A stretch of 64,000 bases of DNA. It comes from Colwellia sp. (GTDB taxonomy: Bacteria > Pseudomonadota > Gammaproteobacteria > Enterobacterales > Alteromonadaceae). Shown here piece after piece: positions 16,532-50,763 of this stretch (positions are counted from its first letter, which is position 1; each line of letters opens with the position of its first letter). The notes below the pieces were generated by a model. It saw nothing but the letters and a program-made list of their open reading frames with translations, was not told the origin of the DNA and did no database searches. The stretch is taken from assembly GCF_013214175.1 (NCBI RefSeq), contig NZ_JABSPA010000006.1, positions 1-64,000 on the forward strand. Reading direction: 5' to 3'. Position numbers and translations under genes: made by a program.

Positions 16532-17530
16532 TTAAGATGGCAAGAACTCCACTGGATAAATCACTGTCACCGATTTCACGTCAGCTGCGCCAAAGTTAAA
16601 CTGTCTAACGCGGGCAACAATACGCGATTCCAGGCGTTTATCGTTTAGCTCGCTTGAGGCAATATTTACCACTAACACTTTACCTTCAGGTGAAATGGTT
16701 ATCTCTAAGACAATCTTCCCTTTAATACCTGGGTTGCTTCTGCGCGCTTTACGATAGAGTGCGTGCAGCTTGCTTTTGTTTTTATCCATAACATAAGCAA
16801 TGTCTTCTTCTGGTCGGTAGTTACCTGTGCGTTTAAAGGCTTTATCTGCCGATTGCTCAGGTTCAATTCCTTCCACTAAACTGGTATCAGCACGTGCGGC
16901 AAGTAATTGCTGTTGTGCAGCGGCCACTTGCGCACCGTCAAGTTTAACGGTACTACGACTACTATTAAGTACACTTGCAGTACTTACCCCGCCACTGCCT
17001 TTACTGGCATCAGCAGTAAGTAAGGAGTCACGTTGCGCAGCCCTTTTTTGACTACTGCTGGTATTAGTTTTAGCTAATCTATTACCGACCATGGCATCAA
17101 TACTTGAGGTATCCATTAAATCAGACAACTCATTACTAAGTGCTAACAAACCACTTTCACTGGCGACTTCACGAGCCTTTACTTGTTTTTTAGTTAACAC
17201 TTGTTGCTTTTTAACCTGCTGTTTTTTTACTTTAGGTTTGTCTTTTGGCTTAGGTGGATCCTTTTTAATCACCTTAGGTTTTGGTGGTTCTTTTTTAATG
17301 ACCTTAGGTTTGGGTTTAGGCTTTGGTTTATCTAAAATAAATTTAGCCACTCGCTCAGGTATTACTACTTTGGCACGTTTTGTTTCTGGTGGTAGCTCCA
17401 TTGAGCCGATATAAAAACCTAAACAAACAATAAGTAATACAATACTCGTCGCAAAAAAGATAAAAGATTTATCCGTTTTACTTTGAGGATGCCAAGCAAG
17501 GGCCAACTGTTGGTAAGTAGCAGTTGTCAT
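16532..17530 (-). CDS. AgmX/PglI-type TonB-like protein, last gene of the minus T6SS arm
   Basis: 332 aa. One transmembrane segment at about 22-42, then a Pro/Lys-rich periplasm-spanning spacer (repeated KPKPK and KKEPPKPK-like units, 65-120), a polar linker, and a C-terminal domain (235-332) with GKIVLEITISPEGKV and a final VIYPVEFLPS strand. This is the AgmX/PglI C-terminal (TonB-like) domain of energy-coupling proteins. It ends a set with two ExbD genes and one ExbB gene spaced 0-5 bp apart. Expected job: transmit motion from the ExbB/ExbD proton channel across the periplasm. In myxobacteria the relatives belong to the gliding-motility set; whether this copy serves T6SS, motility or uptake is not known. 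A dead copy of its 3' end lies at 12640-12722. Confidence 0.85.
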   Translation of the reverse strand: MTTATYQQLALAWHPQSKTDKSFIFFATSIVLLIVCLGFYIGSMELPPETKRAKVVIPERVAKFILDKPKPKPKPKVIKKEPPKPKVIKKDPPKPKDKPKVKKQQVKKQQVLTKKQVKAREVASESGLLALSNELSDLMDTSSIDAMVGNRLAKTNTSSSQKRAAQRDSLLTADASKGSGGVSTASVLNSSRSTVKLDGAQVAAAQQQLLAARADTSLVEGIEPEQSADKAFKRTGNYRPEEDIAYVMDKNKSKLHALYRKARRSNPGIKGKIVLEITISPEGKVLVVNIASSELNDKRLESRIVARVRQFNFGAADVKSVTVIYPVEFLPS

Positions 17531-17535
17531 TATTA

Positions 17536-18042
17536 TTACCCTTTACTTTTCGCTGTTTGCACCGCGGCAAAAGCTATTTTGGTGTAATTTGTTTGACGGC
17601 AGCTCGCTAAAATTTTTCTGAGCACTTGATAAGGAATACTCTCATCACCCATGATGGTTATAGCAAGTCCCTCGCCTGGTTGTTCTTGTGCGTATAAGCG
17701 GTTATCTGCTCTGAAATTAAGCTCTGTTACTAACTCAGCAATGATGTTTTCATCACTTGTTAATAACTGAGCAACATCAACAACCTTCTTGCCTTGTACT
17801 AGCACTTCTGTCGCTGTGATACTTATTATTAGCGTTTCTTTTGGCACCTTATCTGCGACCGAAGTCGGTAAGGTGATGTCTTTACTATTGGGTAACTGCT
17901 GGGAGCCAGAGCTAACCAATAAAAAGAATACTAAAATAGTAAAAATATCCATCAGCGATACCAGGTTTAACCCAGCATTTTTATGGAGGCCTTCAAAACT
18001 CGACATGCGTTTTGAACGACCGGATAACTTAGCCTTTTTCAT
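17536..18042 (-). CDS. ExbD/TolR-family stator protein (with catalytic Asp)
   Basis: 168 aa. A short cytoplasmic basic N-terminus is followed by one transmembrane helix at about 28-44 (LVSLMDIFTILVFFLLV) that retains the proton-carrying aspartate (Asp32), then a periplasmic domain. It pairs with ExbB (18623-19240) and the second ExbD (18048-18623) to form a proton-driven channel; AgmX begins 5 bp downstream. By analogy with the AglR/AglQ/AglS motor, two different ExbD-type subunits can belong to one complex. This is the only one of the two here with the acidic residue. Confidence 0.88.
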   Translation of the reverse strand: MKKAKLSGRSKRMSSFEGLHKNAGLNLVSLMDIFTILVFFLLVSSGSQQLPNSKDITLPTSVADKVPKETLIISITATEVLVQGKKVVDVAQLLTSDENIIAELVTELNFRADNRLYAQEQPGEGLAITIMGDESIPYQVLRKILASCRQTNYTKIAFAAVQTAKSKG

Positions 18043-18047: not shown

Positions 18048-18623
18048 TTACTCTTTGGCACTTTTATCACTTGCTTGACCTGATGCTACGCCGGCTTCCA
18101 CTGCTAAGTCATTAACAGCTAATTCTGCAACAGCGATGACTTGTGCATCACCAATAGAAATATCGGGAAATAACACCACAGTTTCAGCTGAAAAGCCGAC
18201 AACTACTTGCGCACTGCGTACTTTATCCATGACTTTAATCATGGTTTTGTAATCAACTTCAGGTTCAAGTAATAATGAAATACTGCTTTCATCAGGAAAA
18301 CGGGTTTTAATGGCAACCATGGCATCAGTAAACTGCTTCCATTGACTGTCTTTTTGCGTACGCTCAATTTTTTTGATTAGGCCGATATTAGCGTCTTGAA
18401 TATCAAAGCTGTGTTCGCGTATTACCAATTCCAGTTGCAGTTTCACTTTTGCTGAGTCATCACCTTTGGCGTCTAAGGCCGGCAGGTTTAATTCAAGTAC
18501 GGTAAGCCTTGAAAACACCGCAGTGATCAACAGGAATGGTACTAATATCACCATTAAATTTAAAAAGGCGGTGATATTAAGCTCTTCAGCTTGTTGTATC
18601 GTTTGTAAGCCTCTTCTTTTCAT
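18048..18623 (-). CDS. ExbD/TolR-family paralogue lacking the transmembrane Asp
   Basis: 191 aa. The transmembrane helix at about 18-38 reads NITAFLNLMVILVPFLL, so the position that is Asp in ExbD/TolR (NVTPFIDV in E. coli ExbD) is Asn22. The remainder is a periplasmic domain ending in a polar tail. The start overlaps the exbB stop, so the two are coupled. Without the Asp it cannot itself carry protons in the usual way; it probably serves as a structural or regulatory subunit of a mixed ExbD pair. Family call rests on position, topology and helix pattern. Confidence 0.82.
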   Translation of the reverse strand: MKRRGLQTIQQAEELNITAFLNLMVILVPFLLITAVFSRLTVLELNLPALDAKGDDSAKVKLQLELVIREHSFDIQDANIGLIKKIERTQKDSQWKQFTDAMVAIKTRFPDESSISLLLEPEVDYKTMIKVMDKVRSAQVVVGFSAETVVLFPDISIGDAQVIAVAELAVNDLAVEAGVASGQASDKSAKE

Positions 18624-19240
18624 TAATCTCTAACCATTAAGTTAAGTGCTTTTAGCGCTGATTTTTCAATGCTATCCACTAGGTGAGCTGTTTTGGTTAC
18701 TAGATAAGAATGTACTAGTAATAATGGGATAGCAGCGATCAAACCAAATGCAGTGGTATTCATGGCAACGGCGATACTGGCAGAAAGTAAGTCGGCTTTT
18801 TCAGCAGGGTCCGCTTGAGCAACTGCGGTAAAGGCTTGAATAAGACCAATGATGGTACCTAATAAACCTAATAGAGTGGCGATATTGGCATACATTGCTA
18901 AATAATGGGTGCGCTGAGTAAGCTGTGGCATTTCATCCATAATGCCTTCTTCTAATGCTGCTTCAATTACTTCACGGCTTTTGTTGTCGTTATGACGGGA
19001 AAAACCATAATTAAGTACATTGGCTATGGGGGTTTTTATTTCAGCCGTTAATTTTACTGCACGTTGAAAATCTAACGCTTTTAACATAGGCACCAGCTCA
19101 GTCCATACTGAGTTGGTAGCTTTTTCGGTTCTGATCAAATAAATGAAGCGCTCAACAGCAATAACAAGGCCAATAGCAAGGACTATCAGTATCGGGTACA
19201 TAAACGTGCCGCCCGCTTGAAATAATTTAACGATTTCCAT
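18623..19240 (-). CDS. MotA/TolQ/ExbB proton channel family protein
   Basis: 205 aa with three transmembrane helices (about 12-32, 110-135 and 155-180) and the family's large cytoplasmic loop. The pattern LLGLLGTIIGLIQAF followed by AVAMNTTAFGLIAAIP is the conserved TolQ/ExbB/MotA core. It forms the pentameric channel around ExbD helices and uses the proton gradient. It is the first gene of the exbB-exbD2-exbD1-agmX set at the tail of the T6SS minus arm, separated from the 98-aa gene by a pentanucleotide repeat. Confidence 0.92.
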   Translation of the reverse strand: MEIVKLFQAGGTFMYPILIVLAIGLVIAVERFIYLIRTEKATNSVWTELVPMLKALDFQRAVKLTAEIKTPIANVLNYGFSRHNDNKSREVIEAALEEGIMDEMPQLTQRTHYLAMYANIATLLGLLGTIIGLIQAFTAVAQADPAEKADLLSASIAVAMNTTAFGLIAAIPLLLVHSYLVTKTAHLVDSIEKSALKALNLMVRD

Positions 19241-19292: not shown

Positions 19293-19322
19293 TTAAGTTA
19301 AGTTAAGTTAAGTTAACTTAAC
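19293..19322. repeat. Pentanucleotide repeat (TTAAG x4, TTAAC x2)
   Basis: Six tandem 5-bp units fill most of the gap between the 98-aa gene and exbB; the last unit includes the stop codon of the 98-aa gene. Slippage would change only spacing between the genes and the extreme C-terminus. Confidence 0.8.
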
Positions 19323-19614
19323 TATTGTTTGAGCCTTTGATAAAGTTCATACAAGTATCGAGTTTTTTAGCAAAATACGGCTGAGTTTTATCAAGCTGTT
19401 GATTATTTTCAATTTGCTGAACATCGCCAATGTCCGGTGTTTGTACCGATAGTGGTGCTGCAGTCACTTGACTAGCGGCGATACCATTAACGTTTAGATC
19501 GAGCGCATCTAATAATACTTTGCGCTCACGCCGATAATCAGCTAACGACAGCTTGTAATGGGCATGAGCTTTAGTCAGCTCTCGTAATTTTTTCGAGCAT
19601 TGATTAATATTCAT
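19318..19614 (-). CDS. Small T6SS-operon protein of unknown function, 98 aa
   Basis: No signal peptide or membrane segment. The first 45 residues are a basic amphipathic helix (KKLRELTKAHAHYKLSLADY), then a flexible Val/Gln/Thr-rich linker and a short C-terminal helix containing one Cys. It starts 13 bp after the kinase gene ends and has a reasonable upstream purine stretch, so it is an operon member rather than chance. I do not recognise it; it may be an adaptor between the kinase and the ExbB/ExbD set. Confidence 0.6.
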   Translation of the reverse strand: MNINQCSKKLRELTKAHAHYKLSLADYRRERKVLLDALDLNVNGIAASQVTAAPLSVQTPDIGDVQQIENNQQLDKTQPYFAKKLDTCMNFIKGSNNS

Positions 19615-19627: not shown

Positions 19628-22612
19628 TTAGCTGCCTACTAAATCCCTAACTAAGCGAAAACCGGTAATTTCATCCGCTTTACCGTTATGATTGGTGATG
19701 CTCGTGCTAGTGCAAACATCCATAGCCGTTTGATATGAGCCACCGACAGCGGCAACTTTTCTACCCGATAGATACACTAATTCTTGAGCATTACCGGCAT
19801 AATTAACCACACCCCAGGTATTTTGTTTGCCTGTGGTGGTTTTAATCAATTCATCACCCTTGTTAATACCGCGCGAGCTAATTTGACAGTTACGGTTGGA
19901 ATCAAGGCGATTACCTTTAGACTGTGCGGCATGTAGCCATTCACGTTTATGAGGTAAACGATATTTTTTACCCGTGGTTTTACTCAACCAGTTAATGTAA
20001 TTAGTCATTTCGGCTAGCGTGATATCGGTTACCGGTAAACGCTTACTGCGACCAGAAATAGCCTTGCAGGCCTTAGATTTATTGCAGTAGACATTGTATT
20101 GTGAGATTGAGACTTCGTACTTACCAATGGCAAACGATTTAATTTTATCGCTAGCCGGTATTACCACCATGGTTGGCCCGTTACCGCCAACTTTTAAAGC
20201 ATCTTTACAAACAGCGCGAGAGCCTCGAGCGCCTAGTCCAGCAATAGACGACTGGCAGCCATCTTTTTCTTTAATCACTACCGCAGCTATGTCTTGGCTG
20301 TCATTAAACAGTAGTAACGCATAACGTTTAGCGTCTTTGGCGTAATCCGGGCTAACTTGTCCCATAGTAACAATACAAGACGCTAAGTTTTTGGTAATGG
20401 TCTTTTCCGACTTTTGATAGCGGGAATAATCTAAGGTGCGCAGTTTTTCAATGGCAATCTTAAAATCTCGCATATTGAGCCGTTGAGTACAGCTCAGCTG
20501 TTCATTTACGTTGGCCATGGCTAAATTATAAAAATTGGTGCTGCTTTTTTTATCGGCCAATTGTGTCTCTTTAGCTTCATTAGCTTTTGCCGTTTGTAGC
20601 GCTTTTCTTTGTTTTTCTACTGCCGCTAAACGCCTAGCTTGTTGTGCTTTTTTATCAGCCGCTTCTTTGTCACTTCTTTTTTGCGCTAAGGTAAATGTGT
20701 GTTTGTCTAGCTCACTTGGGTCATCGCTATAGCGACTGGCATTCGTTATCAAACCATTAGCGCGAGAAAAACTTGCCGCACTGATAGCCGTGGTAATTTG
20801 TGTTAGATATAACTGATAGATTTCTTCTCGTTTGGAAAAGTACCAAGAGGTCGGTTTTTCCGGAAATAAATTAGCCAGCGATTGCATCTCTTCCCACAAC
20901 GAGCCTTGCCATTCTGCCGAGAAGCTGGGCGAGGCAATAAAGCGATCGATATTTTCTCGTAGTACCTGATAACGAATTTTAAATTCAAGCTGGGTCATTA
21001 ATTCGGCTTGCGATATTCTCGGCTCTTCAACCTTGCTATATTCATAATAGGCAAACCCTGAAGCGGCAACGGCTACCGCAAACGTAGCAGCTAGCAGCCC
21101 ATTGGCTTTTTTCTTTTCGGTAATCTCGTTATAAAAAGCTTCCACGGAAACAATGCGATCTTTACGCTCAAAGGCGAGTGCTGCTTCAATCGCTTTCCAG
21201 TAACGTTTTTTAATACCTTGAATGCGTTTAGGTTTTAATTTTTTGTCGTAGGCTTCATCAGCGGGTAAACGGGTAAAAGGATGATCGCCAGTAAGCATTT
21301 CGTAGGCAATACAACCTAAGGCATAAATATCATCTCGAACATCAGGTACTTGCCCTAAGAGCATTTCACGGCTGGCATAAGCAGGCGTTAGTGCACCAAG
21401 ATTACCGGCATCAAATACCGTTCTGTCTTGTTCACTATGACTTCGATCAATTTTTTGCACTGCTCGCGCAATACCAAAATCAAATATTTTCGCAGTACCA
21501 TTCTCAGTAACAAAAATATTGCCTGGTTTTAAATCTGAATGAACTATATCTTCGTTGTGTGCGTGTATTAGCGCTAGACTCATGCCCTGTAAAATATGCA
21601 ATGCTTCATTACGCGGTAAACCCGTAGCGTGATATTGCTTAACCATTTCATCAAGTGGCTGCCCTATCATGTATTCCATGGTCATGAAAACCACATCACC
21701 ATCACGGTCAAAATCGTATACTTTTACAGTATTTTGGTTGGCAATATGTTGCGCTTTTTTTGCCTCGCGTTGTAAGGAAATAAAAGCTTCTGGATGGGTT
21801 CTAAATTCCTCACTTAATACTTTAATAGCAATATAAGGGTCTCTATCTTGCGCTTCAACTTTTAAGAGATCTTTTGCTTTGTATACCACCCCCATGCCGC
21901 CAATACCGAGGATTTCTTCTAGGACAAAGCGACCTTTAAGTATTTTACTATTACCTGTTGATGACTGAGTTGTTGCAGCTTGAACAGTTGCAGCTTGAGT
22001 ATTGCTATCAGTACTGTCTATTACCGTTGCTGTATCGATTAAATCACGGGCGCTGCCTTGAACATCATTTGTTGAAGTGGCCGTGTTCGGTGAAAAGCTA
22101 CTTGGGCTAAATCGGGTTGCATCATCAAGTGCTGGCTTAGCAGCTTGTGCTGGTACACGCGCCGCAAAAATAGTTTTATCGGCATCGACGATGCTTGGGC
22201 TAATTTCAATTGCCGGCTTGATAGGCGTTCTTGGGGCAAAGACTGTTTTATCTGAGCTATTCGCTTCATTAGTAGCTGTTGTAATTTTTTTAGCACTAGC
22301 CTTTGCTTTAGCAACCGATTGAGCTATTTCTTCAGCTTTGCTCTGAGAAATCGGCTTTCTAAACACTGTTTTCGCATCGTCTGGTACTGCACGAGGGTTA
22401 TCATCTTTATCAGTCGCTATAACCGCTTTGTCAGTTACCATTTGTTCTCTGGCAGGCACAGTCTTTCTAAAGACGGTTTTAGCGTCTTGGTTAACATGAT
22501 TGTATTGCTTGCCTTGATTAGGTACGCCTGCTTTATCACCTTTATTCGTGCTTAGTGCTTCAGTGTTTCTTTCAGTAAGCAGCGCATCATTATGTTGATC
22601 ATTAGTTGCCAT
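19628..22612 (-). CDS. ppkA: PpkA-like Ser/Thr kinase with C-terminal sulfatase-modifying-factor-like domain
   Basis: 994 aa. The N-terminal tail (1-170) carries four copies of a Thr motif, at Thr46 and Thr82 (AKTVFRK), Thr123 (DKTVFA) and Thr147 (DKTIFA), plus a degenerate fifth. The kinase domain spans about 226-485: glycine loop GIGGMGVVYKA, AIKVL lysine, catalytic HSDLKPGN near 357 (a non-RD kinase: Ser precedes the catalytic Asp) and DFG. One transmembrane helix at about 503-522 is followed by a periplasmic coiled region (540-740) and, from about 795, an FGE-sulfatase/SUMF1-like fold (IGKYEVSISQYN, KYRLPHKREW, GFRLVRDL). PpkA kinases switch on T6SS through threonine phosphorylation, opposed by PppA, which is encoded 24 bp upstream. 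The periplasmic domain differs from the von Willebrand domain of the Pseudomonas enzyme and may sense an envelope signal. Confidence 0.9.
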   Translation of the reverse strand: MATNDQHNDALLTERNTEALSTNKGDKAGVPNQGKQYNHVNQDAKTVFRKTVPAREQMVTDKAVIATDKDDNPRAVPDDAKTVFRKPISQSKAEEIAQSVAKAKASAKKITTATNEANSSDKTVFAPRTPIKPAIEISPSIVDADKTIFAARVPAQAAKPALDDATRFSPSSFSPNTATSTNDVQGSARDLIDTATVIDSTDSNTQAATVQAATTQSSTGNSKILKGRFVLEEILGIGGMGVVYKAKDLLKVEAQDRDPYIAIKVLSEEFRTHPEAFISLQREAKKAQHIANQNTVKVYDFDRDGDVVFMTMEYMIGQPLDEMVKQYHATGLPRNEALHILQGMSLALIHAHNEDIVHSDLKPGNIFVTENGTAKIFDFGIARAVQKIDRSHSEQDRTVFDAGNLGALTPAYASREMLLGQVPDVRDDIYALGCIAYEMLTGDHPFTRLPADEAYDKKLKPKRIQGIKKRYWKAIEAALAFERKDRIVSVEAFYNEITEKKKANGLLAATFAVAVAASGFAYYEYSKVEEPRISQAELMTQLEFKIRYQVLRENIDRFIASPSFSAEWQGSLWEEMQSLANLFPEKPTSWYFSKREEIYQLYLTQITTAISAASFSRANGLITNASRYSDDPSELDKHTFTLAQKRSDKEAADKKAQQARRLAAVEKQRKALQTAKANEAKETQLADKKSSTNFYNLAMANVNEQLSCTQRLNMRDFKIAIEKLRTLDYSRYQKSEKTITKNLASCIVTMGQVSPDYAKDAKRYALLLFNDSQDIAAVVIKEKDGCQSSIAGLGARGSRAVCKDALKVGGNGPTMVVIPASDKIKSFAIGKYEVSISQYNVYCNKSKACKAISGRSKRLPVTDITLAEMTNYINWLSKTTGKKYRLPHKREWLHAAQSKGNRLDSNRNCQISSRGINKGDELIKTTTGKQNTWGVVNYAGNAQELVYLSGRKVAAVGGSYQTAMDVCTSTSITNHNGKADEITGFRLVRDLVGS

Positions 22613-22636: not shown

Positions 22637-23395
22637 TTATACACTGACATTTTGGTGAATGCCTTTAACCAATATAACCGAGACATTGTCTGACGCTAGG
22701 TTGTTTAAGGCTGTTTTTATTAATTTATTTACCGATAGTTCCAGAGAAGTTTCGCGCAGACACTGGATAATCTCATCATCTGCCACCGCGTTATATAAAC
22801 CATCACTGCACAGTAGAAATAGATCCCCTACGCTAACATCAAAAACATCCACATCGATATCAAGGCGCTCTGAGGTACCAACTGCTCGGGTGATAACATT
22901 GGCCTCGGGGTGAGTTTTCGCTTCTTCTTCGGAAATTAAACCTTCACTGACCAACTCTGCCACATGGCTATGATCTATGCTTATTTGGCTAAGTTTGTCG
23001 TGCCTGAAACGATATAGCCTAGAATCACCTGCCCACAAACAAACACCGACATTGCCTTTAATTAATAACGAAATGAAGGTACTGCCAATAATGCGACCAT
23101 TTAACTGCGCACGGGAATATTCTAATAAGCGGTTGTTAGCGTCCGTGACGGTATTTTCAATATCATTGACGAAATCATCAAGATTATTTTTCGTGTTTAA
23201 GTGACTTAAATGCTCAACGATCATTTGGCTAGCAACACTGCCGCCATCATGGCCGCCCATACCGTCTGCCACTGTCCATAAACCTATTTCAGGCTGGCAT
23301 AAAAAAGAGTCTTCATTTAAAGGTCTAACGGTGCCAACATCCGTGGCACCCGCACTTGCCCAGGTAAGTGGTCTTCTTATGGTTACGTCATTCAT
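22637..23395 (-). CDS. pppA: PppA, PP2C-family phosphatase of the T6SS
   Basis: 252 aa, the usual length. PP2C metal-binding motifs are all present: RPLNEDSFL near 25, VADGMGGHDGG near 43, GDSRLYRFR near 120, CSDGLYNAV near 195 and DNVSVILV near 240. It removes phosphate from the threonines modified by PpkA and so shuts T6SS assembly off. The ATG shares a TAATG with the stop of the truncated copy upstream (23395-23607), so its translation is probably coupled to reading of that fragment. ppkA follows 24 bp downstream. Confidence 0.93.
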   Translation of the reverse strand: MNDVTIRRPLTWASAGATDVGTVRPLNEDSFLCQPEIGLWTVADGMGGHDGGSVASQMIVEHLSHLNTKNNLDDFVNDIENTVTDANNRLLEYSRAQLNGRIIGSTFISLLIKGNVGVCLWAGDSRLYRFRHDKLSQISIDHSHVAELVSEGLISEEEAKTHPEANVITRAVGTSERLDIDVDVFDVSVGDLFLLCSDGLYNAVADDEIIQCLRETSLELSVNKLIKTALNNLASDNVSVILVKGIHQNVSV

Positions 23396-23607
23396 TAACT
23401 TGCTATCCGTATGTTATTTCTGGTGCTATCAGCAATATCATGACTAAAAACGTCATGCCCAGCCAAACAATAACCGTCTGCCACTGTCCACAAGCCTATT
23501 TCAGGCTGGCATAAAAAAGAGTCTTCATTTAAAGGTCTAACAGTACCTACGTCAGTAGCACCTGCACTTGCCCAGGTAAGTGGTCGTCTTATGGTTACGT
23601 CATTCAT
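23395..23607 (-). pseudogene. Truncated pppA copy (pppA'), 70 aa
   Basis: Codons 1-45 encode exactly the first 45 residues of PppA, but about 10 bases differ and every change is synonymous. After VADG the frame continues with 25 unrelated residues and stops in a TAATG that forms the start of intact pppA. It lacks every later PP2C motif, so it cannot be a phosphatase. A CATGAC/GTCATG hairpin at 23439-23457 lies in the unrelated part. It may now act as a translated leader for pppA. Confidence 0.88.
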
Positions 23608-23670
23608 AATTTACTTCTTTCTCAATTTCCGTATTATTTTCAATATATGTTTCAAATGAGGATTCGAAAG

Positions 23671-24390
23671 TTATTTAGCTATATAGGTTTTTGGCCAGCC
23701 CCAATGGGCCCAGTTACCATCAATCATTGCCGGTAATTGGCTAGAGGGTGGTAATCCCTGCACGGTAAAAAGACAAGGTGAGATATTCTCAGATCCCGTA
23801 GTTGACCAAACACTGTAGCTATTTAATGTTGAGCTGAACAAACTATCTAGCAAATGTGCATAGACATTCATCGGTAACTCTTCTTCAAACTGAAAATCAA
23901 TATGCTGACTGCTTGTTGCTAACTGTTGGCCTGTCTTTAAGTAGGCCATAGGTACCATAGCCGCTTGATGATTTGCCTGTTCAAGCAATTCTTCCAGAGA
24001 AAACTGACCATCAAGTGCTTGCAGGGCTAATTCTTCAATATGGGCAAACCAGCGACCATTTGTCGACATAAACTCTAACGGGTTAATGTCATTGCTCAAT
24101 GGAATAGCAATAGTAAATGGATAGTAACGCCCTACTTGGTCAACGCTGGGTAACACTATGCCGGCCCAATGATTTTCATCAACAACACCGGCCGATAAAA
24201 CAAAGCGCCAAATGGGGCTAGTTAAATAAATATCTAGCCAAGGTTCGCCAATTTGCTCTTTTGAACTGGCAACAAACAGTTGCAACCATTCATCCCACGA
24301 GGTGATAAATTTGGCCGGTAAATTACGATGAACAAAGTCACCGTAACTGGGCAGTTTTCCGTATAAACCTAAAGGTATGTCTGTATTCAC
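23671..24390 (-). CDS. tagF: TagF, T6SS accessory protein
   Basis: 239 aa. The N-terminal pattern LYGKLPSYGDFVHRNLP, then WDEWLQ, SPIWRFVLSAG and GVVLPSVDQVGRYYPF-like sequence identify the TagF family (DUF2094). TagF is a post-translational brake on T6SS that acts through the Fha protein. It starts with GTG overlapping the tssM stop (TAGTG), so the two are coupled. No PppA fusion is present; pppA is separate downstream. Confidence 0.93.
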   Translation of the reverse strand: MNTDIPLGLYGKLPSYGDFVHRNLPAKFITSWDEWLQLFVASSKEQIGEPWLDIYLTSPIWRFVLSAGVVDENHWAGIVLPSVDQVGRYYPFTIAIPLSNDINPLEFMSTNGRWFAHIEELALQALDGQFSLEELLEQANHQAAMVPMAYLKTGQQLATSSQHIDFQFEEELPMNVYAHLLDSLFSSTLNSYSVWSTTGSENISPCLFTVQGLPPSSQLPAMIDGNWAHWGWPKTYIAK

Positions 24391-27950: not shown

Positions 27951-28024
27951 TAAATACTCAGATAATTTTTTAAACTACTTACTTATAACGACTTAACTAA
28001 ACGACTTACTTATTAGCGACTTAT

Positions 28025-38290: not shown

Positions 38291-38292
38291 CC

Positions 38293-38781: not shown

Positions 38782-38783
38782 TT

Positions 38784-38882: not shown

Positions 38883-38884
38883 CC

Positions 38885-38980
38885 ATGTCCGATGAACTAC
38901 TCCAGAAACATTTGTTTATTACCCTATGCTTGACTCTGCCTTGCTATTTAATGCGCGCTGTAAGCGTTAAGGAAGTTTAA
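38885..38980 (+). pseudogene. Micro-ORF 2: second junction copy (31 aa)
   Basis: Begins MSDELLQ and ends RAVSVKEV, so both the TssF-like start and the TssE-like end survive, while the middle has shifted frame and reads through unrelated residues. The real tssF start follows 2 bp later. Repeat spacing is 101 bp, then 98 bp. Confidence 0.78.
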
Positions 38981-38982
38981 TT

Positions 38983-41957: not shown

Positions 41958-41960
41958 CAG

Positions 41961-42434: not shown

Positions 42435-42516
42435 TACCAACACTACTGGTGAACAAGTGGGCAATTATTTAATGAAATGTGTATAAATTAACATCACGTG
42501 AAAAAAGGGAATAGAT

Positions 42517-45258
42517 ATGGTTACAATTGATTTAAAATCATTAGTCGGTAGGTTGAATGAAACCTCTCGCAATGCGCTAGAAGGAGCTGCGGGACTTTGT
42601 CTTTCACGTACTCATTATAATGTCGAAATTGAACATTGGTTATTAAAATTATTAGAAGTACCCGATAGTGATATCTTGGCGATTTTTGATAAATTTGATA
42701 TCGACTTAGGCAAACTTCATCAAGACTTAAACCGAGAATTAGACCGTATTAAAGGTGGCAATACCAGAGCACCGGCATTATCACCAAGTATTGTTGATAT
42801 CAGCAAAAATGCTTGGATGCTAGCTTCCGTGGAATATGGTCATAACGTAGCAACTTCAGCCCATATTTTAACGGCCTTAATGCTCGATGATACTTTACGT
42901 CAATCAACGTCAGCATTGTCGGGTGAGTTAAACAAAATTCAACCTGAATCATTACGCGAAGTAACCCGCGCTATTGTCGGTACTACCGCTGAATCACTAT
43001 CAAGCGCTATGGGCGACACCTCTAACGGCAGTGCGCCAGCTATTGGTGCGCCAAGTAAAACACCATCGTTAGATAAATTCACCATCAATTTAACCGATGA
43101 GGCCAAACAAGGCAAAATCGATCCCATTTTAGGGCGTGATGAAGAAATTAGACAAATCATTGATATTCTAATTCGTCGCCGTCAAAACAACCCAATTTTA
43201 ACCGGTGAAGCCGGTGTCGGTAAAACTGCAGTAGTGGAAGGTTTTGCCCTGCGTATTGCGGCTGGTGATGTGCCTGATGCCTTAAAAGATGTTTGTGTAC
43301 GCACCTTAGACCTAGGTTTATTACAAGCGGGTGCCAGTGTTAAAGGTGAGTTTGAAAATCGTTTAAAGTCTGTGATTGCTGAAGTTAAAGCCTCGCCACA
43401 GCCTATTATTATGTTCATCGATGAAGCACATACTTTAATTGGTGCCGGTGGTAAAGAAGGTCAAGGCGATGCGGCTAACTTATTAAAGCCCGCTTTAGCC
43501 CGTGGTGAGTTACGCACCATAGCGGCAACGACTTGGGCAGAATATAAAAAATATTTTGAAAAAGATCCGGCCTTAACACGACGCTTCCAAGTGGTAAAAA
43601 TTGAAGAGCCAAGCGAAGAAAAAGCCATCAATATGATGCGCGCCATAGCGGAAGTATTACAAAACCATCACGGTGTCCGCATTATGGATGAAGCGATTGT
43701 TGATTCAGTTAAGTTATCAAGCCGTTATATTACTTCACGCCAATTGCCTGATAAGTCGGTAAGTCTACTCGATACCGCCTGTGCTAGGGTTTCTTTGAGC
43801 CAAAGTTCAACCCCAGAAGCCATTGAAAACACTCGCCGTAATATTACTCAAGCAAAAACCACAGTTAAATCATTGGAGCGTGAGCAAGCGACCTTAGGTG
43901 ATCATCAAGAAACTATTGATGAGTTAAATGCAGAACAAGCCTCGCTGAGCGAATTATTAGTGTCACAAGAAGCGCAGTGGCAAGAGGAAATGGCCCTAGT
44001 TGCTAAAATTCACAGCTTTCAGCAGCAAATCGAGCAGAGCCTAGCTGCGGCAGATAAGTCAGAGAAATCTGCTAAAACAGTTAAGTCTGCTAGCAGTGAA
44101 ATAGCTGAAAATACTAAAGCAGATGATAAAGCTGAGACTAAATTATTAACTGCCGATGAGATTGCCGCCACTAAGCAAGAATTACATGAGTTGATGGCAA
44201 GCTTAACTGAATTGCAAGGCGATGAGCCTATGATTCAAGTTAACGTCGGTAGTCAGGCTATTGCCGAAGTTGTTGCCAATTGGACCGGAATCCCGGTTGG
44301 TAAAATGGTTTCAAACGAAATCAAAGCAATTATGGGTCTAAAAGATACCTTACAAAAACGTATTATTGGTCAAGACCATGCATTAGAAGCAATAGCTGAA
44401 TGTATCAAAACATCACGTGCTGGCTTAACGGATCCACGTAAACCGGTCGGTGTATTCTTTATGGTTGGCTCAAGTGGTATTGGTAAAACCGAAACCGCCC
44501 TTGCCCTTGCTGATGAACTGTATGGCGGCGAGCAAAACATTACCTGCATCAATATGTCGGAGTTTAAAGAAGAGCATAAAGTTTCTATGCTGCTTGGCTC
44601 TCCTCCTGGTTATGTTGGTTACGGTGAAGGTGGTGTTTTAACTGAAGCTGCGCGTAGAAAACCGCACAGTATTATCTTATTGGATGAAATGGAAAAAGCG
44701 CATCCTGGTGTGCAAGATATTTTCTATAACTTATTTGATAAAGGTACCATCAAAGATGGTGAAGGTCGTGATATCGACTTTAGAAACACCATTATCATAA
44801 TGACCTCAAATGCTGGTGAAGAGCATATCCGTGCCATTTGTGCGCAGAGTGAAGAGCGACCGGATCCGGAAGTGTTATTAGATAACTTTCGACCACAGTT
44901 ACTTAACTATTTCAAACCAGCATTCCTTGGCCGTACCACAGTTATTCCTTATTACCCACTAGGTGATGAGGACTTACTGCAAATATGTAAAATCAATATG
45001 AACCGTATAGCTAAACGCGTTAAAGATCATTACAACGCCAGCTTTAGTTATGACGATGAAGTGATGTTACACATTTTAGCGAGAAGTCAGGAAGTTGATA
45101 CCGGTGCACGTAATATTGAAAATATTTTAACCCGTACCTTATTACCTGAAATGGCGGTTGAGTGTTTAACTAAACTTTCTAATAACGAGCAAATATCGCA
45201 TATAGAAGTCAATGTTACCGAAGAAGGTTTGTTTACTTACCAGATAACCAGTAAATAA
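42517..45258 (+). CDS. tssH: TssH (ClpV), sheath-recycling AAA+ ATPase
   Basis: 913 aa. A Clp N-domain (about 10-160) is followed by AAA1 with GEAGVGKTAVVEG (near 230), a coiled middle domain (about 430-560) and AAA2 with GSSGIGKTETALA (near 650), then the C-terminal D2 small domain. ClpV unfolds contracted TssB/TssC. AAGGGA precedes the ATG. A hairpin follows before the TPR genes. Confidence 0.96.
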   Translation: MVTIDLKSLVGRLNETSRNALEGAAGLCLSRTHYNVEIEHWLLKLLEVPDSDILAIFDKFDIDLGKLHQDLNRELDRIKGGNTRAPALSPSIVDISKNAWMLASVEYGHNVATSAHILTALMLDDTLRQSTSALSGELNKIQPESLREVTRAIVGTTAESLSSAMGDTSNGSAPAIGAPSKTPSLDKFTINLTDEAKQGKIDPILGRDEEIRQIIDILIRRRQNNPILTGEAGVGKTAVVEGFALRIAAGDVPDALKDVCVRTLDLGLLQAGASVKGEFENRLKSVIAEVKASPQPIIMFIDEAHTLIGAGGKEGQGDAANLLKPALARGELRTIAATTWAEYKKYFEKDPALTRRFQVVKIEEPSEEKAINMMRAIAEVLQNHHGVRIMDEAIVDSVKLSSRYITSRQLPDKSVSLLDTACARVSLSQSSTPEAIENTRRNITQAKTTVKSLEREQATLGDHQETIDELNAEQASLSELLVSQEAQWQEEMALVAKIHSFQQQIEQSLAAADKSEKSAKTVKSASSEIAENTKADDKAETKLLTADEIAATKQELHELMASLTELQGDEPMIQVNVGSQAIAEVVANWTGIPVGKMVSNEIKAIMGLKDTLQKRIIGQDHALEAIAECIKTSRAGLTDPRKPVGVFFMVGSSGIGKTETALALADELYGGEQNITCINMSEFKEEHKVSMLLGSPPGYVGYGEGGVLTEAARRKPHSIILLDEMEKAHPGVQDIFYNLFDKGTIKDGEGRDIDFRNTIIIMTSNAGEEHIRAICAQSEERPDPEVLLDNFRPQLLNYFKPAFLGRTTVIPYYPLGDEDLLQICKINMNRIAKRVKDHYNASFSYDDEVMLHILARSQEVDTGARNIENILTRTLLPEMAVECLTKLSNNEQISHIEVNVTEEGLFTYQITSK

Positions 45259-45427: not shown

Positions 45428-47005
45428 ATGAAACTCACTTACAGCAACATTTTTGTAGCTAGCCCTTTCTTGATTAGGCTTTGCTTAACGAGGTTTGGCT
45501 TAACTAGTTTAGGTTTAGCTAGATTAAGCTTAATTGGCTTAAGCCTAATTAGTTTTGTCATTTATACCTGTGTTGATGCCAAGGCAAATAATGCAGCGAA
45601 TGACATTAATAGTTATCAAGCACAGCTTGAGTCTGTTGATAAGGCACATCAAGCCTTAACCAAAAGCTTTTATGATGAGTTAGTGAAAACGCCGTCATTA
45701 AAAGCCGCTAGATTTAATACCATTGAAGCGCTTGCTCAAGCTGTGAACCAAGCACTAGTCAATGAAAGTAAAAGTGAAAGCAATAATTCAGTAAAAGCTG
45801 TTGCCTTAATAATCCGTAATCAATCTCTGCTCAAGCGCTACTACGATAGTCTAGAAACTATCTCCTTAATTAAGCTGCTATTAGATAATAATGCCTTAAT
45901 TAATGCCACATCACTGATTAAAGCCATTGAGCGCCAAGGCGATGACAATGTTATTGGCCAATTAAATTACCTGTTAGCTGATTTTTATTTTCAGCGTAAA
46001 AAATGGTCCAAGGTACTTAGTTACCTTAACGACAATGATACCGACTTACCGCTGGAGCAACATCACCATGCTTTGCTGATGAAGGGTGTTTCCCTACAGC
46101 AACAAAGCAAACATGGCTTAGCAATTAAGGCCTATGAAAAGATTCCTGCAACGGCTAAACACTATACTGCTGCCCAATTAAATTTAGCCATCGCCAATAT
46201 TAGACAAGGTTGGTGGACTGATGGTCACCAGATAATTAAACAACTTCTTGCCTCACAAGAAACAGTTGCCCAAGAGAAAACATTAAACCGTTTATATATT
46301 ACCCTAGGCTATTCGCTGTTAAATCAAGCCTATTATCGCAATGCTAGAAAAACCTTCCAATTAGTTGGCCTTAGCAGTCGTTATAGTAATCAAGCGCTCC
46401 TAGGTATTGCCTTAACAGCTGCCTATCAAGATGATTACCTTGGTGCATTAAACGCAAGTCGGTTTTTAAAGGAAAAGCAGCAAGATGATCTGCCCATTGA
46501 TGAGGCATTTTTATTGATGCCATTTTTTTATGAAAAGTCACAACAACTTGCCACCGCATCACTGGGTTACTCACAAGCAGCAAGTTATTACCAAGATAAG
46601 ATTTCAGCGCTCACTCAATTGATTGACGCACCCATTAATTTAGCAAGTCACCCGATTGTGCTCAGTAATGGCATCAGTAACGGCGTCAGTAACGGCGTCA
46701 GTAACGGCGTCAGTAACGGCGTCAGTATGAACATTAACAATATGCATATCGGCTTCTCGGCAAATTATCCCAGCTACTTCTTTACCCAGCGGCACAATGC
46801 AGAACAATTAAAGTCATGGCAGGCGCAATTAAATAATCCTAAATTAAGTCAGGACTTGTCTTCGGTAATGCAAGAGTATGATGTGTTAACAGTGAACATG
46901 GCAAAAAGCATAATGCACAACAGAGTTGCACAGTTGAGCAGCTATTTAAATCAATCTAGATATGGCTTGGCCAGACTTTATGACAACAATACGGTGGCAC
47001 AATAA
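45428..47005 (+). CDS. TPR1: exported tetratricopeptide-repeat protein
   Basis: 525 aa. An unusually repetitive N-terminus (LTRFGLTSLGLARLSLIGLS) leads into a signal peptide ending near VDAKA. The mature protein consists largely of helical TPR-like pairs (LNYLLADFYFQRKKWSKVLSYL; LGYSLLNQAYYRNARKTFQLVG). Residues about 412-433 are an in-frame (GVSN) repeat encoded by a 12-bp tandem repeat. Its TAA overlaps the next ATG (TAATG). Such proteins accompany AgmX/ExbB/ExbD sets in other gammaproteobacteria and probably form the periplasmic or outer-membrane part of that machine. Confidence 0.78.
   Translation: MKLTYSNIFVASPFLIRLCLTRFGLTSLGLARLSLIGLSLISFVIYTCVDAKANNAANDINSYQAQLESVDKAHQALTKSFYDELVKTPSLKAARFNTIEALAQAVNQALVNESKSESNNSVKAVALIIRNQSLLKRYYDSLETISLIKLLLDNNALINATSLIKAIERQGDDNVIGQLNYLLADFYFQRKKWSKVLSYLNDNDTDLPLEQHHHALLMKGVSLQQQSKHGLAIKAYEKIPATAKHYTAAQLNLAIANIRQGWWTDGHQIIKQLLASQETVAQEKTLNRLYITLGYSLLNQAYYRNARKTFQLVGLSSRYSNQALLGIALTAAYQDDYLGALNASRFLKEKQQDDLPIDEAFLLMPFFYEKSQQLATASLGYSQAASYYQDKISALTQLIDAPINLASHPIVLSNGISNGVSNGVSNGVSNGVSMNINNMHIGFSANYPSYFFTQRHNAEQLKSWQAQLNNPKLSQDLSSVMQEYDVLTVNMAKSIMHNRVAQLSSYLNQSRYGLARLYDNNTVAQ
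46663..46726 (+). repeat. 12-bp in-frame tandem repeat within TPR1
   Basis: Five to six units of GGCGTCAGTAAC (the first two variant) encode repeated Gly-Val-Ser-Asn. The unit is a multiple of three, so copy-number change alters linker length without disrupting the frame. Confidence 0.9.
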
Positions 47006-49863
47006 TGCCGGGTAATTTATCAAAATTTATTTTTTCACCACTTGTTTTTTCACAGCTTAATGCCACTAAGCTATCGTTACTGCTAGTTTGCTGCTTGAGC
47101 GGATTGCTTAGTGGCTGTAACGAACAAGAAAGCTCACGACAAACACTGCAAAGCATAGATAACACTGAACAACATAAAAATGCGCAACAAAAAAAGGCCA
47201 TCGCCAAGTCAGAAAATGATATTCGCGACGCCTACATAAATTATTTAAAACATGCCTCAAAATCAGATTTATCACGTGCCGATGCGTTAAATAGACTGGC
47301 GGCTATTGAATTTAAATTATCAGAAGAGTTATTACTAAACTCGGCCATAGAAGAAGCAGAAACAAAACTGGCCAATGAAAAATTAAACAGAACTATTGAG
47401 CTATTAGAAACCTCGATAAAAGATTACCCCAAGGCAAAACACAATGATGTCACGCTTTATCAGCTAGCCAAGGCTTATGATCAACAGGATGATTACGAGC
47501 AGACACATGAAGCATTAAAGCAGTTGGCTGAAGATTACCCTAAATCAATTTACTATTTAGAAGCACAATTTAGACTGGCTGAATATGCCTTTAGTGCTAA
47601 GCAATATCCGCAAGCTGAAGATAAATATACCGAAATAATTATTGCTAAAAACAATGCCGTTTTCTACGAAAAATCATTGTATAAGCGTGGTTGGGCTCGC
47701 TTCAAACAAGAGTTTTATATTGAAGCAGCCGATGATTTTGTGCAAGTAATTAACTTTAATGACTTTCAACAATATGAGCAATTAACCGCTAGTCAGCGCA
47801 GTTTATTTGATGAGTATTTTCGCGCCATGGGATTATCATTCTCCTATCTGGGCGGCGCTGAGCCACTTAACTTGTACTTTAAACAAACTGAGCATGTTAA
47901 TAATTTATATTATATTTACAGCAGCTTAAGTGACACTTTCCTCAAACAACAGCGTTATAACGATGCGGTAAGTACCTTAGACAGTTATATCGACCAATAC
48001 CCTGACTCTGAGTTCTCAGCACAAGCCTCTTTAAAAATGGTCGACATATGGAAGCAAGCTGGTTTTGTCGAACAAAGAAAAGCCGCTTTCGAGCAATTTT
48101 ATGCCGACTATCAACCAAGCAGTAGTTATTGGCTTAACAAAAAAAGTCGCTATAAAAAACGCTATGAGATGATAAAGCTCGCACTGAAAAACCATATTTT
48201 AGTTGAGACTGCGACTTACCATAAAAAGTATCAACAAGGTAAATTGCCAGCGGACTTCACTCGTGCAGAGCGTTGGTATAAAAATTATTTAAACCATTTT
48301 TACGCCTACTCTCGCCAAGATAATATCCACTTCTTATTTGCTTCACTGTATTTACAACATAAAGATGAAAAGCTTGCCTTTAAGCATTATCAACTGGCGG
48401 GCTTTGACGAACAGATCATCACCAATAAAGATGCCGCCTATCAAGCGATTACCTTGGCAGATAACTTATTAGCTGCTGCGAAAAATCCAAATAGTCAGGC
48501 TGTTTGGCTCAGTCGATTCATTGACTCGTCAATTTTATATGCACAGCAATACCCAACTGATAAACACACTATTAAAGTCATCGCCCGTGCCAGCGATATC
48601 GCTTATAGCAATAAGAGATTTAGCGATACCATTGTTTTAGCTGAATTGGTTATCAGTGATAAAAACAGCAAACTGATCAGCAATATTAATATGGTAAGAG
48701 CACATGCCTACTTTCAAACCAAGCAGTACCTAGCAGCAGAGCATAGCTATTTTTCTTTAGTAAATAACCAAGAGCTAATTCCTAAAGATAAAACCTCGGC
48801 AACAGAAGGTCTTGCCTTAGCGATATTTTATCAAGGCAGTCGCGCGGCTGAACAAAAAGAAATGCAGTTAGCTATTGAACACTATGCAAGGATTTCTCTG
48901 CTCACACCAAAGAGTACAACCGCAGCCTCTGGTCTATTTGATGCTATTGCTTTATCAATTCAGAGTGAACAGTGGTTACCAGCCATTGACTATATTAAGC
49001 GCTTTAGAAAACTCTATCCGCATCATAAAAAATCAAATGATATCGCTAAAAAACTGTCTGTTGCCTACTTAAATTCTAAGCAAAATATTGCCGCGGCAAA
49101 AGAGTTAGAAAAATTGTCGAGCCGTGAAAATAGTAAAGAATATAAAATGGCTTCACTACTCAAAGCCGCTGAACTTTATCAAACAAATAACGATACCCTT
49201 TCGGCTATTCGATCATTAAAAAAATATATTAAAACTTACCCGCAACCTTTTACGCCCTATTTCGAAGCTATGTATACCTTAACGCAATTATATACTGAGA
49301 CTAACGAACTCAATAAAGGCATATTCTGGCATAAAAAAATTCTGGCCGCGGATAAAAGAACGCCAAACTCGGCTAAAAATGAACAAGCTAAGTTTATCGC
49401 TTCAAATGCTGCAATTGCCCTAGCACGTCACGAAAATCAGCGTTTTTCCAAAGTGAAACTAGTAAGGCCATTAAAGAAGAATTTAAAACGGAAAAAGCAA
49501 AGTATGCTAGCCAGTGTTAACTATTATGCCCGCGCTTCTTCTTATGGCGTTGCAGAAACAGCAACAGAAGCAACCTATGCCATTGCCACTATTTACAACG
49601 ACTTTAGTCAGGCTTTATTAACGTCTGAAGTGCCCAAGCATCTTAATGATGACGAACAAGAGCAATATCTATTTTTGCTCGAAGATCAGGCCTTTCCCTT
49701 TGAAGAAAAAGCCATCGAATTTTACGAAGTTAACCTAGCCTATACCCAAGATGATATTTACGATCAATGGATAAAAAAGAGCCATCAAGCATTGCAGCAC
49801 TTATTTCCAATCAGGTATCAGCGAGAGCCAAAAGTAGAGGACTTTATTAATGTCTTACATTAA
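47005..49863 (+). CDS. TPR2: large TPR outer-membrane lipoprotein
   Basis: 952 aa. The signal peptide ends in the lipobox LSGC (Cys about 33). The protein is TPR-like helical repeats throughout (for example VTLYQLAKAYDQQDDYEQTH, YLEAQFRLAEYAFSAKQYPQ, FLKQQRYNDAVSTLDSYIDQ). It resembles the long TPR proteins encoded with AgmX/PglI-type systems and could scaffold that complex under the outer membrane. It starts at TAATG with TPR1 and overlaps TPR3 by 14 bp. Confidence 0.82.
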   Translation: MPGNLSKFIFSPLVFSQLNATKLSLLLVCCLSGLLSGCNEQESSRQTLQSIDNTEQHKNAQQKKAIAKSENDIRDAYINYLKHASKSDLSRADALNRLAAIEFKLSEELLLNSAIEEAETKLANEKLNRTIELLETSIKDYPKAKHNDVTLYQLAKAYDQQDDYEQTHEALKQLAEDYPKSIYYLEAQFRLAEYAFSAKQYPQAEDKYTEIIIAKNNAVFYEKSLYKRGWARFKQEFYIEAADDFVQVINFNDFQQYEQLTASQRSLFDEYFRAMGLSFSYLGGAEPLNLYFKQTEHVNNLYYIYSSLSDTFLKQQRYNDAVSTLDSYIDQYPDSEFSAQASLKMVDIWKQAGFVEQRKAAFEQFYADYQPSSSYWLNKKSRYKKRYEMIKLALKNHILVETATYHKKYQQGKLPADFTRAERWYKNYLNHFYAYSRQDNIHFLFASLYLQHKDEKLAFKHYQLAGFDEQIITNKDAAYQAITLADNLLAAAKNPNSQAVWLSRFIDSSILYAQQYPTDKHTIKVIARASDIAYSNKRFSDTIVLAELVISDKNSKLISNINMVRAHAYFQTKQYLAAEHSYFSLVNNQELIPKDKTSATEGLALAIFYQGSRAAEQKEMQLAIEHYARISLLTPKSTTAASGLFDAIALSIQSEQWLPAIDYIKRFRKLYPHHKKSNDIAKKLSVAYLNSKQNIAAAKELEKLSSRENSKEYKMASLLKAAELYQTNNDTLSAIRSLKKYIKTYPQPFTPYFEAMYTLTQLYTETNELNKGIFWHKKILAADKRTPNSAKNEQAKFIASNAAIALARHENQRFSKVKLVRPLKKNLKRKKQSMLASVNYYARASSYGVAETATEATYAIATIYNDFSQALLTSEVPKHLNDDEQEQYLFLLEDQAFPFEEKAIEFYEVNLAYTQDDIYDQWIKKSHQALQHLFPIRYQREPKVEDFINVLH

Positions 49864-50464
49864 ACCTAATCTGAGCATTACTTTGAACATTAGCTTAGTC
49901 ATCATTTTTATCATAACTATCTCGGCTTGTAGTAATCAAGTAACAAGTAACCAGCCGGTAGTGACTAAGCAAACTGCCGAGTCTTCAATTGAAGAGCTAC
50001 AACTCTATAAAAATGCCATTGTAGCGTTAAATAATAATGAGCTAGCTAAGGCTAAAAAATTATTTACCACCATGAGTGAACGCCAGCCAAATATTGCTGG
50101 TTCATGGGCTAATTTAGCGTTAATTAGTATTAAAGAAGATAACTTAGCTCAAGCAGAAGTTTATGCAAAAACAGCGTTAGTGAAAAATCCCAATATGCCA
50201 CAGGCATTGAACTTGTCCGGTTATCTAGCACAAAAAAAAGGCGCTATTAATATCGCCAAGTCTTATTACTTACAGGCAATTAGCCATAAGTCGGATTACG
50301 CCTTAGCGCATTATAATTTGGCACTCGTTTATGATGTTTACCTGCAAGACATCGCTAAGGCTATTGAGCATTACCAATATTATTTAGCCTATAACAAACA
50401 GCAAGACGAAAATACGGAAAACTGGTTAGAGGGTTTACAAGCAACCATGGCGGCAAATAATTGA
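49850..50464 (+). CDS. TPR3: small TPR lipoprotein
   Basis: 204 aa with lipobox ISAC (Cys about 26), then three or more TPR units (ALNNNELAKAKKLFTTMSER; AEVYAKTALVKNPNMPQALN; ALAHYNLALVYDVYLQDIAKA). It overlaps TPR2 by 14 bp, and its TGA overlaps the next ATG (TGATG). It resembles PilF/AglT-like small TPR lipoproteins that assist assembly of envelope machines. Confidence 0.82.
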   Translation: MSYIKPNLSITLNISLVIIFIITISACSNQVTSNQPVVTKQTAESSIEELQLYKNAIVALNNNELAKAKKLFTTMSERQPNIAGSWANLALISIKEDNLAQAEVYAKTALVKNPNMPQALNLSGYLAQKKGAINIAKSYYLQAISHKSDYALAHYNLALVYDVYLQDIAKAIEHYQYYLAYNKQQDENTENWLEGLQATMAANN

Positions 50465-50763
50465 TGAAAAAAATACTGATTAACAGCTTAGTGTCATTGG
50501 CACTTAGCCTTGCTGCAGTTTTCGGTGCAGCCGAAGCCATTGCCGAAGATAATGTAAGCAATAACCAAAGTATGACTGAGCCTGTTGATAGGGTCGAACT
50601 AAGAACAAGCTTTATCAAAGGTAATAAAGAACTGCCCCAGGTACTTTATATTGTGCCTTGGCAAGAGATAAAAAAGGTCGTCCTAAAGCCAGAAAACATG
50701 GTGTTGCATAGCTTATACGGTGATATTTTTCAGCCAATTACACCAGCAGATCTTATTGAATAA
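50464..50763 (+). CDS. Small exported protein of the TPR operon, 99 aa
   Basis: Starts at the ATG of a TGATG overlap. The signal peptide ends near AEAIAED (about residue 27). The mature 70 residues contain ELPQVLYIVPWQEIKKV and end ITPADLIE. I recall similar short PQVLYIVPW proteins next to AgmX/TPR clusters in related genera, which supports the module, but no function is known to me. Confidence 0.7.
   Translation: MKKILINSLVSLALSLAAVFGAAEAIAEDNVSNNQSMTEPVDRVELRTSFIKGNKELPQVLYIVPWQEIKKVVLKPENMVLHSLYGDIFQPITPADLIE

Follow-up and report, generated by a model that had tools for sequence, protein, structure and literature searches.

A type VI secretion lineage with a putative built-in envelope motor of the Agl/Glt-core kind, inherited as a genetic unit

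Firing of the type VI secretion system (T6SS) is usually explained by contraction of the sheath and recycling by ClpV. Several described systems come close to the locus reported here. In available excerpts of reports from 2011 and 2013, AglR, AglQ and AglS together with GltC, GltD, GltE and GltG form a core of linked genes of unknown function that stands alone in gammaproteobacteria (PMC3169522, PMC3858216). Among T6SSs, TagQRST of Pseudomonas aeruginosa is described in the excerpted text as coupling outer-membrane damage to T6SS assembly (PMC11881912), and TssW of Acidovorax, again in excerpt, as positioning the T6SS with PpkA from the outer membrane (PMC12607579). Here we describe positions 16532-50763 of a 64,000-nucleotide stretch of a Colwellia sp. 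genome (NZ_JABSPA010000006.1, positions 1 to 64,000; hereafter the window), in which a T6SS is bracketed by the two halves of an ExbB/ExbD/AgmX/TPR motor gene set. We recovered 21 distinct loci of this T6SS lineage, 16 complete and five cut by contig ends, and both motor halves are present in all 16 complete ones, so that the arrangement is more than a chance one. The sequences argue against a chance insertion and for a subsystem co-inherited with the T6SS; that this T6SS lineage has an Agl/Glt-core-like motor built in, as a genetic unit, is well supported by the comparisons below. A search of the open-access literature, with subscription papers mostly outside its reach, found no description of a T6SS with ExbB/ExbD/AgmX genes.

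The window lies on contig C16 of a 5.0-Mb genome (G000). Open reading frames (ORFs) together with Pfam and NCBIfam matches bear out the genes named in the initial annotation and their positions: the minus arm ends with exbB, two exbD genes and agmX, and the plus arm with genes for three TPR proteins and for one small exported protein. That annotation lacked a 98-residue gene (h98) between ppkA and exbB, and it had each half fused to the end of a T6SS operon by overlaps or short gaps; the short gaps do stand at the T6SS junctions (ppkA-h98 13 bp, h98-exbB 77 bp, clpV-TPR1 169 bp), but overlaps occur only inside the motor halves. The features are as follows.

16532-17530, minus: agmX-like gene; one predicted membrane helix, a Pro/Lys-rich rod and an AgmX/PglI (TonB-like) C-terminal domain (NF033768, 67.5 bits; cut-off 40 bits)
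17536-18042, minus: exbD2 (PF02472, 63.7 bits), membrane Asp kept
18048-18623, minus: exbD1 (PF02472, 47.6 bits), Asn at the equivalent position
18623-19240, minus: exbB, stator ring subunit (PF01618, 104.7 bits)
19318-19614, minus: h98, small protein of 98 residues between ppkA and exbB
19628-22612, minus: ppkA, Ser/Thr kinase with a C-terminal FGE-sulfatase domain
22637-32809, minus: the other T6SS genes of this arm, pppA, tagF, tssM, tssL, tssK, tssJ and fha (Pfam)
33266-45258, plus: tssA, tssB, tssC, tssC2, tssE, tssF, tssG, a gene for a 157-residue lipoprotein-like protein, and clpV (Pfam)
45428-47005, plus: TPR1, exported TPR-like protein (sub-threshold TPR matches only; signal-type N-terminus by eye)
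47005-49863, plus: TPR2, TPR lipoprotein (PF13174, 54.2 bits; lipobox pattern LSGC)
49850-50464, plus: TPR3, small TPR lipoprotein (TPR_2, 29.8 bits; lipobox pattern ISAC)
50461-50763, plus: ex100, small exported protein, no family; 100 residues from a TTG start, 99 from the next ATG

The minus arm therefore reads fha-tssJ-K-L-M-tagF-pppA-ppkA, followed by h98, exbB, exbD1, exbD2 and the agmX-like gene. All core genes (tssA, B, C, E, F, G, H, J, K, L and M) are matched by Pfam in the locus. The two TssC-type sheath genes (35010-38290) both belong to the VipB family, and such a tandem is presumably a trait of ImpC/ImpD-type T6SSs; the 157-residue lipoprotein-like gene of the plus arm matched no family. 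Because G000 has a single TssK, a single TPR2 and a single Hcp, the last on contig C4, this is its only T6SS by these markers. Hcp (TssD) is present in 13 of 14 motor genomes searched, G229 being the exception, and VgrG (TssI) was not found within 16532-50763, the part of the genome searched for it.

The motor genes are most like the Agl-Glt (or Agl-Nfs) core, with which they share an ExbB-type stator (one AglR-like gene, PF01618), two ExbD-type proteins (AglQ/S-like, PF02472), TPR proteins, a small exported protein and an AgmX/PglI-type C-terminal domain, a likeness judged by family models and published descriptions rather than by direct comparison with Myxococcus sequences. Unlike that core, the module here is split around a T6SS and tied to it, and its AgmX-like protein has no FHA domain. 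The NCBIfam models specific for AglR, AglQ and AglS match none of the motor genes, the full-length GltG and GltJ models fall far below their cut-offs on the agmX-like protein (31.1 against 650 and 21.7 against 450), as does the GltE model on TPR3 (29.4 bits against 225), and no Glt model matches TPR1 or TPR2. With TonB-ExbBD and Tol-Pal the locus shares a homologous stator, the ExbB profile matching ExbB and TolQ chains of known structure (E 3e-9 to 1e-6), and a TonB-like C-terminal domain. It differs from both in having two unlike ExbD proteins (Asn, Asp) and TPR lipoproteins, and no receptor, TolB or Pal was recognised in 16532-50763. Among solved structures the AgmX profile matches TonB best, but at E 0.09 only, and Pfam TonB_C reaches 21.3 bits, below its 24.6 cut-off. 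The complete core with PpkA, PppA, Fha and TagF is that of a PpkA/PppA/Fha-type T6SS. Compared with T6SSs that have TagQRST or TssW, however, this one has the motor at its operon ends and a PpkA with an FGE domain of its own, a fold that we take TagR to have as well. TagQRST was not recognised in 16532-50763, the stretch searched, where Pfam finds no ABC transporter and the FGE domain only within PpkA. Outer-membrane-linked control of PpkA in this locus is a proposed analogy with TagQRST and TssW.

Linkage of the motor halves to one T6SS lineage was followed through genus, class, order and phylum surveys, which overlap in genomes. Close TPR2 orthologues (72-97%) occur in six of 39 genomes of the genus, the same six that carry a lineage-type TssK (516-528 bits), and nine further genomes of the genus have TssK at 477 bits or less and no such TPR2. 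In the class survey (369 genomes) lineage TssF scores 983-1384 bits in eight genomes, with the next score at 662, and T6SS-type TPR2 of at least 968 bits is found in seven, always on the same contig as lineage TssF; with at most two TPR2 candidates scored per genome, the next are 779 (G172) and 761 bits (a second copy in G301), both away from any T6SS (hereafter standalone), and the rest are at 625 or less. TssF reaches at least 1023 bits in 10 of the 394 genomes of the order survey (next score 523), and in the phylum survey (398 genomes) the lineage TssF is confined to G000 and G014 (next score 732). With duplicate records recognised by identical stretches (G660 = G099; G722 = G100), the complete loci are those of the window, G010, G014, G016, G099 (Psychromonas), G482, G100 (Aliikangiella), G685, G784, G758, G676, G178, G301, G445, G238 and G229. 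An ex100 homologue and an AgmX/PglI C-terminal domain (E 1e-3) are found in all 16. The five cut loci do not contradict the linkage: the TPR half is seen in G339, with the start of exbB, in G004 and, spread over two contigs, in G001; the start of TPR1 is seen in G724; and the G460 contig stops inside clpV with neither half seen, a T6SS-type ExbB (333 bits) lying on another contig. The nearest T6SS outside the lineage, in G910 (TssF 732 bits), has no motor gene in the 40 kb read, a stretch that ends just after pppA, and in a search of the whole G910 genome only one ExbB reached E 1e-30; it scores like the standalone copies (229 bits) and lies on a different contig. No such ExbB was found in G153, G160, G193, G205 or G170, of which G160, G205 and G170 are only 82-88% complete.

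The same gene types also form a module away from T6SSs. The standalone set comprises 31 places with a TPR2 relative (20 at L088-L107, three at L114, L119 and L122, and eight others), nine of the 19 loci from one search for relatives (L115-L118, L120, L121 and L123-L125) having been left out of annotation. The statement in the initial annotation that these genes normally make one cluster agrees with 30 of the 31, where the module is contiguous and on one strand; in the exception, L095, the contig end follows TPR2. All 29 loci scanned keep the order TPR1-TPR2-TPR3-ex100-exbB-exbD1-exbD2-agmX on one strand for the genes recognised, one or two of which, mostly TPR1, were assigned by position only in 15 loci. 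No T6SS gene was matched in these 29 stretches (up to 23 kb for loci drawn from the searches for relatives and up to 40 kb in all). L094, outside the 29, has the same arrangement with TPR1 and TPR2 merged in one long ORF. This module resembles the reported gammaproteobacterial core described above. Within the genus, the standalone copies are distantly paralogous to the T6SS-linked ones (TPR2 30-35%) and sit elsewhere in the genome; G004, G010, G014 and G016 hold both types of copy, G000 the T6SS-linked one only. Beside the closest standalone modules (L223 and L225; G172 and G301) lie genes that by eye we take to be gatCAB- and mreBCD-like. Upstream of the module in L099 (608-7306), the one standalone locus scanned for such neighbours, are matches to DUF3570, thioredoxin-like, SH3, outer-membrane-barrel and HZS_alpha-type families. 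Clusters of DUF3570, DUF4266 and thioredoxin genes have been tied to flavinylation in an excerpted report (PMC8238504), and the L099 genes may offer a clue to what the standalone module does.

Trees of the two halves, in which 10 of the 29 standalone loci were included, place the T6SS-linked copies on one side of a branch, with support (bootstrap/SH-aLRT) of 99/98 for exbB, exbD1, exbD2 and agmX (26 rows) and 88/92 for TPR2 and TPR3 (28 rows). In both, the T6SS-linked group adjoins the same standalone pair, G172 and G301b, and faster trees with all 29 standalone loci agree (SH-aLRT 98 and 84). Of the 13 splits in an unrooted tree of six T6SS core genes from the 16 complete loci, 13 recur in the tree of the TPR half and 12 in that of the ExbB half, and distances in the core correlate with those in the halves at 0.955 and 0.952. 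The locus of G722 (= G100) groups with Psychromonas and Colwellia in all three trees, yet its genus label is that of G685, G784, G758 and G676. Judged from these gene trees, in which hidden paralogy is possible, the motor-T6SS unit seems to have moved whole.

The junctions are also conserved. On longest ORFs, the gap between clpV and TPR1 is -1 to 270 bp in 16 of 18 loci (-1 bp in G178, 2 bp in G339). Four same-strand genes stand between clpV and TPR1 in G445 (L217) and G238 (L219), where cargo may have been inserted inside the operon. In G301, which is rearranged to a single strand, each half remains beside its operon neighbours. Fifteen of 17 motor loci (all but G301 and G229) have, between ppkA and exbB, a counterpart of h98 with a core motif around L-x2-L and EYR/DYR-x2-R recognised by eye, and phmmer with h98 gave no match in 29 standalone and six motorless loci; h98 is possibly an adaptor linking kinase and motor. 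The FGE-sulfatase domain is present in all 16 PpkA proteins scanned from motor loci (17 were available; that of G445 spans two pieces and was omitted), and the two kinases scanned from motorless loci (G146 and G279) are without it. Promoter and terminator scans, whose counts stayed within the range of shuffled sequence, turned up nothing terminator-like on the coding strand in the clpV-TPR1 interval or from ppkA to agmX, and lend weak support at most.

The residues of the proton path are conserved. ExbB membrane motifs are conserved across 45 complete sequences, and ExbB is 91-92% identical among four Colwellia. In all 45 aligned loci (16 T6SS-linked and 29 standalone) ExbD2 keeps the membrane Asp and ExbD1 has Asn, in contrast to AglQ and AglS, both of which have a conserved membrane Asp according to the excerpted source (PMC9389320). 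An obligate ExbD1-ExbD2 pair is the natural reading of this split, since the AglQ change D28N abolishes proton conductance in Myxococcus (PMC3858216, in excerpt), and this motor family may need the heterodimer. Ratios of nonsynonymous to synonymous change (dN/dS) among the four Colwellia (six pairs, rough values because synonymous changes are near saturation) point to purifying selection: 0.02-0.05 for ExbB, 0.10-0.13 for ExbD1, 0.07-0.09 for ExbD2, 0.07-0.12 for AgmX, 0.11-0.19 for TPR1, 0.07-0.13 for TPR2 and 0.09-0.26 for TPR3, beside 0.02-0.09 for six T6SS core genes; the small genes give 0.16-0.37 (ex100) and 0.18-0.51 (h98). A simple lipobox pattern is found in 16 of 18 TPR2 and 15 of 18 TPR3 proteins, some of these matches being doubtful.

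The reading we favour, at a probability of roughly 45%, is that of one co-inherited machine in which the T6SS co-opted a proton-motor module of eight genes, of the Agl/Glt-core kind, the most likely output being to license or place firing via PpkA. That motor and T6SS are inherited together suggests that the weapon uses the motor. A contiguous module would have been broken after ex100, the TPR half coming to lie after clpV and the exbB half after ppkA, with the unit then inherited, and apparently transferred, whole. We infer every step from stator to output: ExbB and the ExbD1-ExbD2 pair would form the inner-membrane stator, the AgmX rod, driven by it across the periplasm, would work against TPR1/ex100 and two lipoproteins, TPR2 and TPR3, and the output would most likely reach PpkA, with its FGE (TagR-like) domain, and through PpkA pass to Fha and TssJLM. 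In that case the module would correspond to TagQRST or TssW but with an energy supply: it would report on the outer membrane, or search it, and would either permit firing or determine where it occurs. Such a proton-driven transducer ranks first because a motor half follows ppkA, PpkA carries the FGE domain and other systems are known in which PpkA is under outer-membrane-linked control; we place mechanical work on TssJLM or the wall second and a contact device third. Stated more broadly, and slightly more tentatively, the lineage could be a T6SS class energised through the envelope, in which proton flow via ExbB-ExbD1-ExbD2 moves or strains the AgmX rod and the outer-membrane TPR lipoproteins to place, open or reset TssJLM.

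Several observations weigh against the one-machine reading. Support for a single origin of the TPR half is moderate (the 88/92 above), and the roots differ, the T6SS tree with G910 outside branching first at G229 and the motor trees with standalone copies outside first splitting off the group of G445, G238, G685, G676, G784 and G758. In G279, ppkA-h98-exbB-exbD-exbD-agmX lie on one contig, yet the sole TssF found is of another type (463 bits). Few genomes of the class have the lineage (8 of 369), the contrast in FGE domains involves only two motorless kinases, and the case is built from sequence comparison.

The initial annotation had left open whether the T6SS was inserted into a motor cluster or the device had become a T6SS accessory, and co-inheritance strongly supports the latter association. 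If the T6SS had simply landed in a motor cluster of unrelated function, the halves would once have been together, as they are in the contiguous standalone modules, but a single insertion between ex100 and exbB would keep the strand and the TPR-first order. The halves instead lie on opposite strands and read outward in 15 of the 16 complete loci, and G301, with everything on one strand, has the exbB half first. The same junctions are found in all 16, the unit has apparently been transferred whole, and the standalone relatives are distant paralogues elsewhere; an uninterrupted orthologous module in relatives, with the T6SS variably present within it, was sought and not seen. We consider such hitch-hiking the least credible explanation. 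A more serious though still unlikely alternative is that the motor acts mechanically on the envelope complex itself, anchoring TssJLM to peptidoglycan through the ExbD periplasmic domains, opening or resealing the wall and outer membrane, or recycling the complex after firing. TssL of the lineage is short (295-326 residues) and the loci are without an OmpA-like motif, so that anchoring could come from elsewhere, and the TolR-like peptidoglycan-binding domains of AglQ and AglS are proposed, in the excerpted source, as anchors of the gliding motor (PMC9389320). However, the OmpA test was one pattern search that missed a long TssL, in G081, that may carry such a domain, and TssL of the motorless sister G910 is also short (310 residues), so that the motor is no simple swap for that domain and its candidacy as a substitute for it is weakened.

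Relatives of the motor power gliding and spore-coat transport in Myxococcus (PMC3858216, in excerpt), and a device for contact or surface movement might bring cells to prey and be inherited with the weapon for a joint payoff, with no physical coupling. This is improbable given that the motor genes lie inside T6SS operons, that h98 is tied to the junction and that the halves stay with their arms after rearrangement; moreover, the core alone does not drive motility according to the available text of Luciano 2011 (PMC3169522). The TonB-like C-terminal domain of AgmX would suit a motor that energises import of nutrients released by prey, but the genes of 16532-50763 include no recognisable TonB-dependent receptor and TPR lipoproteins are not receptors, which leaves uptake very improbable. 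Replacement of ImpE by the motor was also considered and is weakened, as the motorless G910 has no gene between tssC2 and tssE, the place at which ImpE (PF07024) is found in motorless G153 and G146, the only two tested.

Genes flanking the T6SS region add several side observations. The 195-residue orf195 (50865-51452) is beside ex100 in four Colwellia loci (window, G016, G010 and G004) and beside agmX, on the other arm, in G482. It matches no Pfam family, a profile search gave no meaningful solved relative, and its HG and AC pairs recall, on our assumption, a clan CD cysteine peptidase, which the structure model (mean pLDDT 53.6, low confidence) is too poor to check. A cargo-like cassette at 6687-12287 encodes a 269-residue protein, a DUF4123 protein (PF13503, 76.4 bits) and family-less proteins of 810 and 341 residues. 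The N-terminal region of the 269-residue protein (about 190 residues) recurs in proteins encoded inside or next to the motor T6SS loci of G099, G100, G301, G445 and G238, whose C-terminal parts partly differ; of the four genes between clpV and TPR1 in L217 and L219, one is family-less and has this region and one is a DUF3592 gene. Between the cassette and the motor half, the ORF at 12796-13788 is a candidate that we take to be a REP-type transposase. On either side of the T6SS region (4095-5858 and 53424-55790) the minus strand encodes similar proteins in which Ig-like and 'WDVSSV'-type segments repeat, as recognised by eye; this is possibly a duplication flanking the locus.

A lineage with a fixed proton motor would, if the proposal is true, change what powers or places a T6SS. 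Were the T6SS energised through the envelope as suggested, the proton motive force would be a direct input to T6SS action, and Agl-type motors would have a third output besides gliding and spore-coat transport. The invariant Asn/Asp split of ExbD1 and ExbD2 bears on the question of AglQ/S-type heterodimers, which the excerpted source leaves open (PMC9389320). The Agl/Glt-like core of gammaproteobacteria, of unknown function, would gain one obvious client whose activity can be measured by sheath imaging, Hcp release and killing.

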